Source: Chelativorans petroleitrophicus (GTDB lineage: Bacteria > Pseudomonadota > Alphaproteobacteria > Rhizobiales > Rhizobiaceae). Taken from it: 64,000 nt of DNA. A program made the position numbers and the translations under genes. The notes under the pieces were generated by a model, which was not told the origin of the DNA, did no database searches, and saw only the letters and a list, made by a program, of their open reading frames with translations. Within the stretch, counting starts at the first letter, position 1; every line of letters starts with the position of its first letter. Where the stretch lies: positions 124,001-188,000 of the forward strand of contig NZ_JAODNV010000005.1 of NCBI RefSeq assembly GCF_025398195.1. Direction: 5' to 3'. Of the stretch, positions 14,432-50,428 are shown in pieces.

Positions 14432-14610
14432 GTGCCCCTCTGTCGGAAGCCTGAGAGACTCGGCATCCCGGAACCCTGTCAGGATGCCTTACACCTTCGG
14501 CGCGGGGTAACCCCGACTTTCCAGAGTGTCTAACGCATCCGCGGTTCTTTTGCCTGAGAGATTTCGGGCGATTTCCCCTTCGGCGGCAGCTCCTGCTGCT
14601 CTCTCCCACG
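14432..14610 (-). promoter_or_regulatory. tandem glycine riboswitch upstream of gcvTHP
   Basis: Two consecutive glycine aptamers read on the minus strand. The first (about 14523-14610) has GGGAGAG, GCCGAAGGGG, TCTCTCAGGCAAAAG and the closing ACTCTGG. The second (about 14432-14522) has GCGCCGAAGGTG, a GGCATCC/GGATGCC arm, then TCTCTCAGGC and GACAGAGGGG. Between the second aptamer and the gcvT ATG is a hairpin with arms CATGCCGC/GCGGCGTG and no T tract. Glycine riboswitches ahead of gcvT normally switch the operon on when glycine is abundant (established knowledge); here the switch may act on translation. Confidence 0.93.
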
Positions 14611-14714
14611 GACGCGCAGGGCTTTCGCCCTCGACGTGGCCAAGGTAGCGCAGGAAGGAGCCGTTGTCACGCGCCTGCTGTGTCATCGACAGGTTTTTGG
14701 CAGGCGCAGCACTC

Positions 14715-50030: not shown

Positions 50031-50074
50031 AAAAAAAAAACAACACCCGCCGGGGGAGGAGGACCGGCGGGTGT
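50031..50074 (-). terminator. intrinsic terminator of the DUF1127-sRNA transcript
   Basis: The 11-bp stem ACACCCGCCGG/CCGGCGGGTGT (50043-50053 with 50064-50074) is followed on the minus strand by TG and ten Ts (50031-50040). It is also the third hairpin of the sRNA cluster. Confidence 0.92.
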
Positions 50075-50152
50075 CGTTTTGGTCGACCGGCGATCGGGAG
50101 GAGGAGGAGAAAGCCGGTCGCATTCACCAAGGTGGGAGGAGGAGACCTTGGC
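50031..50152 (-). ncRNA. cluster of three CCUCCUCCC hairpin RNAs (CcsR/cuckoo-like)
   Basis: Downstream of the DUF1127 gene, the minus-strand transcript folds into three stem-loops, each displaying CCUCCUCCC in its loop. Stem 1 spans 50127-50151 (CCAAGGT/ACCTTGG, motif at 50134-50142). Stem 2 spans 50084-50120 (8 bp, motif at 50096-50104). Stem 3 spans 50043-50074 (11 bp, motif at 50054-50062) and is followed by ten Us. This matches the CcsR (conserved CCUCCUCCC-motif) sRNAs of Rhodobacter sphaeroides and the related 'cuckoo' family of Rhizobiales, also next to DUF1127 genes. The motif resembles the anti-Shine-Dalgarno end of 16S rRNA, so pairing with ribosome binding sites or proteins such as CcaF1 is expected. 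Confidence 0.88.
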
Positions 50153-50169
50153 GAAATCCTGTCGTTTTG

Positions 50170-50310
50170 TTAGATCGCCTTACGGGCGACGTACGGAATG
50201 TCGCTGCGGGAAATCCCGAGGTCGTTGAGCTCGCGGTTGGTGAGGCGGCTCAGCTCGTTAACCGTCTGCCGGTAGCGGCGCCAGTTGCGGTAATTGCGGA
50301 TCAGGTTCAT
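50170..50310 (-). CDS. DUF1127 micro-protein (CcaF1-like)
   Basis: A 46-residue arginine-rich protein: MNLIRNYRNWRRYRQTVNEL, then SRLTNRELNDLGISRSDIPY ending VARKAI. The LSRLTNRELNDLGISRSDI part is the DUF1127 signature. In Rhodobacter the DUF1127 protein CcaF1, encoded just upstream of CcsR sRNAs, binds RNA and affects their maturation; by analogy this one may do the same. It ends 18 bases before the first sRNA hairpin, on the same transcript. A possible -10 element (TTATCT on the minus strand, 50355-50360) and a nested inverted repeat lie upstream. No strong ribosome binding site is seen. Confidence 0.9.
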   Translation of the reverse strand: MNLIRNYRNWRRYRQTVNELSRLTNRELNDLGISRSDIPYVARKAI

Positions 50311-50394
50311 CGTCGTACTCACTGTCGGCTGGTTCGTTTGATCTTGTGCCCGTTAGATAATCCCGGGCCGGTGCGAGCGGAAGTGCCAATGTTG

Positions 50395-50428
50395 CATGGC
50401 AGCATTGCATATTGTGCAATGCACCATG
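50395..50428. repeat. nested inverted repeat upstream of the DUF1127-sRNA unit
   Basis: CATGG, two bases, then GCATTGCA-TATTG-TGCAATGC, one base, then CCATG. The inner arms pair 8 of 8 and the outer arms 5 of 5. It lies 85-118 bases before the DUF1127 ATG and 144 bases before the likely tRNA promoter, so it could be an operator or a cruciform. The rest of this 319-base gap shows only the tRNA promoter. Confidence 0.5.

Follow-up and report, generated by a model that had tools for sequence, protein, structure and literature searches.

A DUF1127-ar14 locus of Chelativorans petroleitrophicus and its probable control by an LsrB/VtlR-type regulator

This study of a 64,000-nucleotide stretch of the C. 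petroleitrophicus genome, referred to below as the window, places three consecutive RNA hairpins behind a DUF1127 gene in a known small RNA family, ar14, and thereby assigns the copy of an unstudied genome to that family. The reading that we favour, with a probability of roughly 0.7, is that the locus is a DUF1127-ar14 operon of the CIN1/cuckoo type, which would be activated by LsrB and would yield one triple-hairpin anti-Shine-Dalgarno sRNA. What we observe directly is the anatomy of the locus, its family match, the conservation of its loops, the covariation of stems 2 and 3, a promoter box and the position of a LysR-type gene elsewhere in the genome; activation by LsrB, processing and base-pairing we infer from relatives.

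Anatomy of the locus

On the minus strand of the window a 46-codon DUF1127 gene (50170..50310) is followed by three stem-loops, and the stems of 7, 8 and 11 bp that the initial annotation had described 3' of this gene are all present. The open reading frame of the gene matches PF06568 (DUF1127) with E = 6.8e-19. As listed, this frame begins with GTG at 50322 and is thus open beyond the ATG at 50310, which we consider the likely start of the 46-aa protein because the aligned proteins of relatives mostly begin with MNLIR. The gene is flanked by trmFO and by a tRNA gene, which is followed by tig (gene names checked), and the ar14 stretch starts nine bases past its stop codon.

Folding places hairpin 1 at 50155-50123, with seven Watson-Crick pairs adjoining the loop, or 11 pairs when the outer pairs and a G-U are included. 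Hairpin 2 (50120-50084) has eight pairs and a wide loop of 21 nt, or of 13 nt if two weak inner pairs form. Hairpin 3 (50079-50038) has 11 pairs, can be extended to 16 and runs into ten T at 50040-50031, so that the last hairpin is indeed an intrinsic terminator with a tail of ten Us, as had been claimed; a generic terminator scan found none, since it allowed loops of only 3-8 nt and was blind to hairpin 3. Every one of the three loops exposes the motif CCUCCUCCC, a motif that Rhodobacter CcsR RNAs carry as well. At the DNA level the 9-mer CCTCCTCCC was found at 50142-50134, 50104-50096 and 50062-50054, and nowhere else in the window.

Shuffles of the window contain 0.81 copies of CCTCCTCCC on average and reached three in 1 of 100 cases. 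We dropped this word count as an argument, because the genome as a whole holds 82 such sites and 89 of the pattern read in reverse, and so shows no enrichment. What counts is the arrangement of the 9-mers and not the 9-mer itself. A folding energy of -61.9 kcal/mol is predicted for the 142-nt stretch, compared with -36.4 +/- 3.6 kcal/mol for its shuffles (z = -7.15), and none of 200 shuffles folded as well.

Identity of the RNA and its copies in the genome

The Rfam covariance model ar14 (RF02344) spans all three hairpins and matches the minus strand at 50038..50160 over its full length (model positions 1-123 of 123) with 85.1 bits, well above the gathering score of 58.8, which supports the resemblance to the CcsR/cuckoo families that had been noted from the letters alone. 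The copy, which the initial annotation had thought to be probably unannotated, is picked up by Rfam directly. With three hairpins that each expose the motif, the last of them a terminator, the locus holds one copy of a catalogued sRNA that is common in rhizobia and their relatives. This family is that of the Sinorhizobium meliloti sRNA NfeR1, or Smr14C2 (PMC10746234, PMC7143759), and a description of its three-hairpin CCUCCUCCC design dates from 2011 (PMC3927594). Like our locus, NfeR1 has three hairpins with CCUCCUCCC in each and an LsrB-type box upstream (PMC10746234, PMC7143759). It differs in that a promoter of its own has been described for it, whereas here the DUF1127 gene separates the box from the RNA.

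An Rfam search of the C. petroleitrophicus genome, which answers the earlier call for a count of copies elsewhere, returned two ar14 copies above the cut-off, that is one more than the copy in the window, and a third piece at 31.4 bits. The second good copy scores 80.8 bits and lies on the minus strand of contig C11 (75553-75670; positions 1501-1618 of fetched locus L002), and no adjacent DUF1127 gene was found. The third piece, below the cut-off, is shortened (contig C65, 38132-38218, minus strand; L003, 1501-1587), has two apparent hairpins and a tRNA gene nearby, and seems to have lost one hairpin. On contig C68 (L011, about 1336-1300, minus strand) a further DUF1127 gene is followed by a single terminator-like hairpin of 19 bits with the sequence CTCCTCCC in its 5' arm and loop; this may be a worn-down array, and chance is also conceivable.

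Conservation of loops and stems

Of 121 genomes sampled from the family, 116 have an ar14 match with E <= 1e-3, 108 of them above the cut-off, and the remaining 5 have none. For comparison we assembled 92 ar14 modules, made up of 30 from the family survey, 60 fetched in addition (the 59 best-scoring in listing order and one from the genus of the window) and the 2 good copies of C. petroleitrophicus; some genomes contributed several, and 91 of the modules are distinct. Three exact motifs are found in 81 modules, two in 10 and one in 1. A simple stem scan finds three hairpins in 83 modules and two in 9, although it misses hairpin 2 of the window itself on account of the wide loop.

For the alignment 52 of the 92 modules were chosen by hand so as to thin out near-duplicates. 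In this alignment 24 of 27 motif columns are invariant, and RNAalifold predicts 23 pairs, 21 of them with at least one compensatory change. All of these pairs belong to hairpins 2 and 3; hairpin 1 is unpaired in the consensus fold, so that the evidence from covariation covers hairpins 2 and 3. The loops thus hardly vary, and stems 2 and 3 covary. The invariance of the loops is partly a selection effect, since it was the Rfam model, with a score that favours the loops, that selected the modules; the compensatory changes in the stems are less so. The initial annotation had named, as an outcome that would speak against it, relatives in which the loop motif is lost while the flanking sequence is kept. 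The 92 modules and the 52-module alignment reveal the opposite, and they support the proposed anti-Shine-Dalgarno-like motif as one that stays fixed on changing stems.

Link to DUF1127 and the repeating unit

The relatives of the DUF1127 gene were compared in the best 80 of at least 366 confirmed named loci, mostly from Mesorhizobium. At least two same-strand copies of the motif, counted and not folded, lie within about 650 nt of the gene in 80 of these best 80, and the DUF1127 neighbour that had been remarked on initially is therefore a recurring arrangement. trmFO is likewise near the gene in 73 of the best 80, some of the fetched stretches ending at contig ends. The neighbourhood is also an already published one: same-strand CcsR-like hairpins with a short DUF1127 gene define the Cuckoo/CIN1 loci of alphaproteobacteria (definition via PMC10253847), the link to short DUF1127 genes having been named CIN1 in later work (PMC10253847). 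Our locus shows this very combination, and we see no difference from the cuckoo family as it is presented in the papers that cite it.

The array lies 3' of the DUF1127 gene in 67 of the best 80 loci and 5' of it in 13, the latter all within L046-L074 and from Shinella, Sinorhizobium, Rhizobium and Pararhizobium. From these 13 loci it appears that gene and array stay linked even though their order changes. Within the searched stretches, 31 of the 92 modules have a DUF1127 gene upstream, 28 have one downstream and 55 have one on at least one side, which leaves 61 with none found just upstream. These numbers bear on the possibility that the hairpins merely end and protect the DUF1127 mRNA, in which case they would be a 3' UTR that has a strong terminator but does not act in trans. 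Hairpin 3 is after all a terminator directly behind a gene, as such a reading would have it, but the near-invariant loops on stems 2 and 3 that change by compensation, the 61 of 92 modules without a DUF1127 gene just upstream, the arrays that precede the gene in 13 of the best 80 loci and the action in trans of the standalone relative NfeR1 (PMC7143759) all speak against it, and we regard it as highly improbable.

The number of motifs per locus is exactly 3, 6 or 9 in 62 of the best 80 loci, and some of the other array sizes are artefacts, since the counting may score a single long loop as two and passes over imperfect motifs. Two DUF1127 genes followed by six motifs is the layout of 36 loci, two genes followed by nine that of 13, and one gene followed by three that of 6, with other layouts rarer among the best 80; in L057, L086 and other Mesorhizobium loci, for example, two or three triple-motif modules come after a tandem DUF1127 pair. 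What repeats is therefore the triple hairpin, which behaves as a single module, and with the DUF1127 link kept in the best 80 of at least 366 relatives, array dosage and this link together form an accessible comparative question.

The initial annotation had expected several separate sRNAs from the transcript. Such an outcome, in which the transcript would be cut, perhaps by RNase E together with the DUF1127 protein, into three single-hairpin sRNAs similar to CcsR1-4 under stress sigma factors for heat or oxidative stress, has its precedent in the CcsR1-4/CcaF1 system of Rhodobacter sphaeroides. There too a DUF1127 gene, ccaF1, is followed by related RNAs of similar design on one terminator-ended transcript, which is reported to be cut into single-hairpin RNAs, and this counts against one triple-hairpin RNA at our locus (PMC10253847). 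The Rhodobacter system, however, has four RNAs and an RpoHI/RpoHII promoter (PMC10253847), in contrast to the three hairpins and the VtlR/LsrB-type box found here, where a simple scan finds no CTTG-type RpoH site. Moreover, the triple hairpin is duplicated as a unit and also stands alone in relatives; this speaks against three separate RNAs at our locus, and the Rfam model runs at full length across all three hairpins. We therefore consider the production of separate sRNAs improbable and the earlier claim unsupported as it was worded, and one RNA of about 125 nt appears likelier than three because the motif count is exactly 3, 6 or 9 in 62 of the best 80 of at least 366 loci.

The promoter box

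Upstream of the DUF1127 gene, at 50393..50407 on the minus strand, lies a VtlR/LsrB-type box, CAATGCTGCCATGCA, which agrees in 14 of 15 bases with the reported Brucella VtlR motif, quoted as CAATGCAGCCATGCA (PMC12595884). The pattern CAATGCNGCCATGCA at 50407-50393 is the only exact site in the genome of 3,959,353 bases; with up to two mismatches the pattern has 74 sites and its reverse has 4, so that inexact single matches mean little. The box differs in a single base from the Agrobacterium form GCAT-N3-TG-N3-T (form from PMC7486931), as does an overlapping site at 50418-50405 from the S. meliloti form TGCA-N6-GCAT (form from PMC10746234). A TGCA-rich further half occupies the 18 bases ahead of the box (50425-50408) and is common to many relatives.

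The box occurs with up to two mismatches upstream of DUF1127 in 59 of the best 80 of at least 366 loci, exactly in 2, and in 0 of 80 letter shuffles. With up to three mismatches it precedes 37 of the 92 ar14 modules, and 5 of the 92 control stretches taken downstream contain it (Fisher p 1.3e-8, a value that treats the rows as independent, which they are not). Where a DUF1127 gene ends no more than 45 nt upstream of the module (21 modules), the box is present in 15, always between -244 and -288, and in 0 of 21 controls. Among the 20 box-bearing modules that lack an upstream DUF1127 gene, 10 have the box at -55 or -56, and these have no DUF1127 gene found on either side; in the other 10 its position is scattered. 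Counting against our reading, the box is absent within 350 nt from 6 of the 21 DUF1127-led modules and is absent from 55 of the 92 overall; the one-base misses to two published forms and the scatter of half of the boxes that lack an upstream DUF1127 gene also lower our confidence slightly. In the window itself the box stands at -247 from the ar14 module with the DUF1127 gene between them and not at about -55 as in standalone NfeR1-type RNAs, and for this reason we do not file the locus under the standalone ar14 subtype.

A probable -10 element, TATCTA (50354..50359, minus strand), lies 33 nt past the box, and a TATCT-like -10 recurs at similar spacing in many relatives when promoters are aligned on the box, an illustrative view since these promoters were picked by hand. 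A generic sigma-70 scan gave no match at the locus. The initial annotation had suggested that the RNAs act under stress, to be sought under heat and oxidative stress. RpoH control was rejected as a candidate, as a simple CTTG-N-TAT pattern, which is not a full model, found no site in the 170 promoter bases scanned. Since the VtlR/LsrB-type box recurs in relatives and no RpoH-like site appears in this simple scan, control by LsrB/VtlR seems likelier than heat-shock control. The heat part of the suggestion accordingly gives way to a testable regulator, while the oxidative part may still hold, since LsrB is described as redox-responsive (PMC11975290).

A looser core, GCANNGCTNNNWTGCA, was discarded as a test, because the pattern was built after three of its own sites had been seen and is circular. 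It has 5 sites in the genome, and its reversed pattern has 2. Of the 5, three precede abcR, the second ar14 copy and the DUF1127-ar14 operon, and the remaining two fall within open frames of 1005 and 376 codons. For abcR and the second ar14 copy this looser core, which was derived from these same sites, is the only match.

The candidate regulator

The C. petroleitrophicus genome carries one copy of ar15/abcR, and directly before it, after a thioredoxin-reductase-like frame, stands a LysR-type gene with the Pfam domains HTH_1 and LysR_substrate; none of the 25 best NCBIfam models listed for this gene reached its cut-off. In S. meliloti AbcR1 and AbcR2 sit between SMc01226 and lsrB (PMC7143759), and on this ground we tentatively take the LysR gene for lsrB/vtlR by its position and its LysR domains.

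It has been reported that LsrB binds and activates the NfeR1 promoter (PMC10746234), and that VtlR in Agrobacterium directly activates abcR1 and atu1667, the latter an orthologue of Brucella BAB1_0914 and BAB2_0512 (PMC7486931). Three DUF1127 genes and AbcR2 are described as VtlR-dependent, next to a fourth DUF1127 gene without a box (PMC12595884). Our locus resembles this VtlR/LsrB regulon of abcR, DUF1127 genes and NfeR1 in that a Brucella-type box, one base off, lies in the DUF1127 promoter and a LysR gene adjoins abcR in the same genome; it differs in its single mismatch to the Agrobacterium form and, at the overlapping site, to the S. meliloti form. The AbcR1/AbcR2 RNAs likewise have anti-Shine-Dalgarno motifs (PMC7143759) and a link to LsrB in S. 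meliloti (PMC10746234), but they form a separate Rfam family, ar15, whose single copy in C. petroleitrophicus lies elsewhere in the genome. A search of the open-access literature, subscription papers being outside its scope, found no report that joins a VtlR/LsrB box to a DUF1127-ar14 operon.

Proposed mechanism and candidate targets

By analogy with these relatives, we propose that the LysR-type regulator LsrB (VtlR in Brucella) would bind at 50407-50393 and activate the promoter, with transcription starting most likely about 35-40 nt ahead of the DUF1127 ATG. The transcript would cover the DUF1127 gene and terminate at hairpin 3, and its 3' part would be kept or cut out as a single triple-hairpin sRNA of roughly 125 nt. 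The CCUCCUCCC of each loop would then pair with GGGAGGAGG-like Shine-Dalgarno sequences and block translation, and many of the silenced mRNAs would probably be those for solute uptake and catabolism. In NfeR1 the three motifs act redundantly in silencing mRNAs, mostly for transport proteins (PMC7143759). In Rhodobacter, CcaF1 helps to mature CcsR (PMC10253847), and a similar role of the DUF1127 protein in the maturation of our RNA is a possibility only. The small DUF1127 proteins of Agrobacterium are reported to act via protein contacts, and CcaF1 can substitute for them (PMC12501420).

An RNA that titrates a protein would also look like this, with threefold repeats of the same loop on stems that vary, and CcaF1 is reported to bind RNA (PMC12501420). 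The array might instead be a sponge, its exposed CCUCCUCCC loops being recognised by the DUF1127 protein itself or by some other protein that binds RNA. We judge this improbable, since the motif is complementary to the Shine-Dalgarno sequence and silencing by NfeR1 through the motif has been reported (PMC7143759), while the Agrobacterium DUF1127 proteins use protein contacts and no RNA-binding evidence is reported for YjiS (PMC12501420).

Candidate targets of the proposed antisense RNA were sought with the pattern GGGAGGAG-N4-11-ATG, which has 33 sites in the genome; 30 of these were taken up as loci, of which 29 gave a frame and 22 a frame of at least 50 codons. The 21 of these 22 frames that were scanned (L153 was left out) include five uptake families, DctP, ABC_tran, TctC, SBP_bac_1 and TctB, and one DUF4212. 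A control Shine-Dalgarno pattern gave 9 sites, of which 6 were scanned, with uptake families in 0 of 6; the reversed pattern of GGGAGGAG is an unfair null for a Shine-Dalgarno sequence. The list of candidate targets agrees weakly with a silencing of uptake, but it is short and its control is very small, so that we give it no weight.

We speculate further, at somewhat less than even odds, that one LsrB/VtlR circuit in this group drives the DUF1127 protein together with two classes of anti-Shine-Dalgarno RNA, in that abcR, the free-standing ar14 and the DUF1127-ar14 operon would share a promoter element. The triple hairpin might then be a mobile dosage unit, present as 3, 6 or 9 hairpins and keeping its DUF1127 link on either side, and the redox state might set the amount of a general silencer of mRNAs with strong Shine-Dalgarno sequences.

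Elsewhere in the window, a glycine riboswitch (RF00504) lies at 14532-14618 on the minus strand, directly upstream of gcvT (14466-13294), and a frame farther on past gcvT is presumably glycine-dehydrogenase-like; this is an ordinary arrangement.
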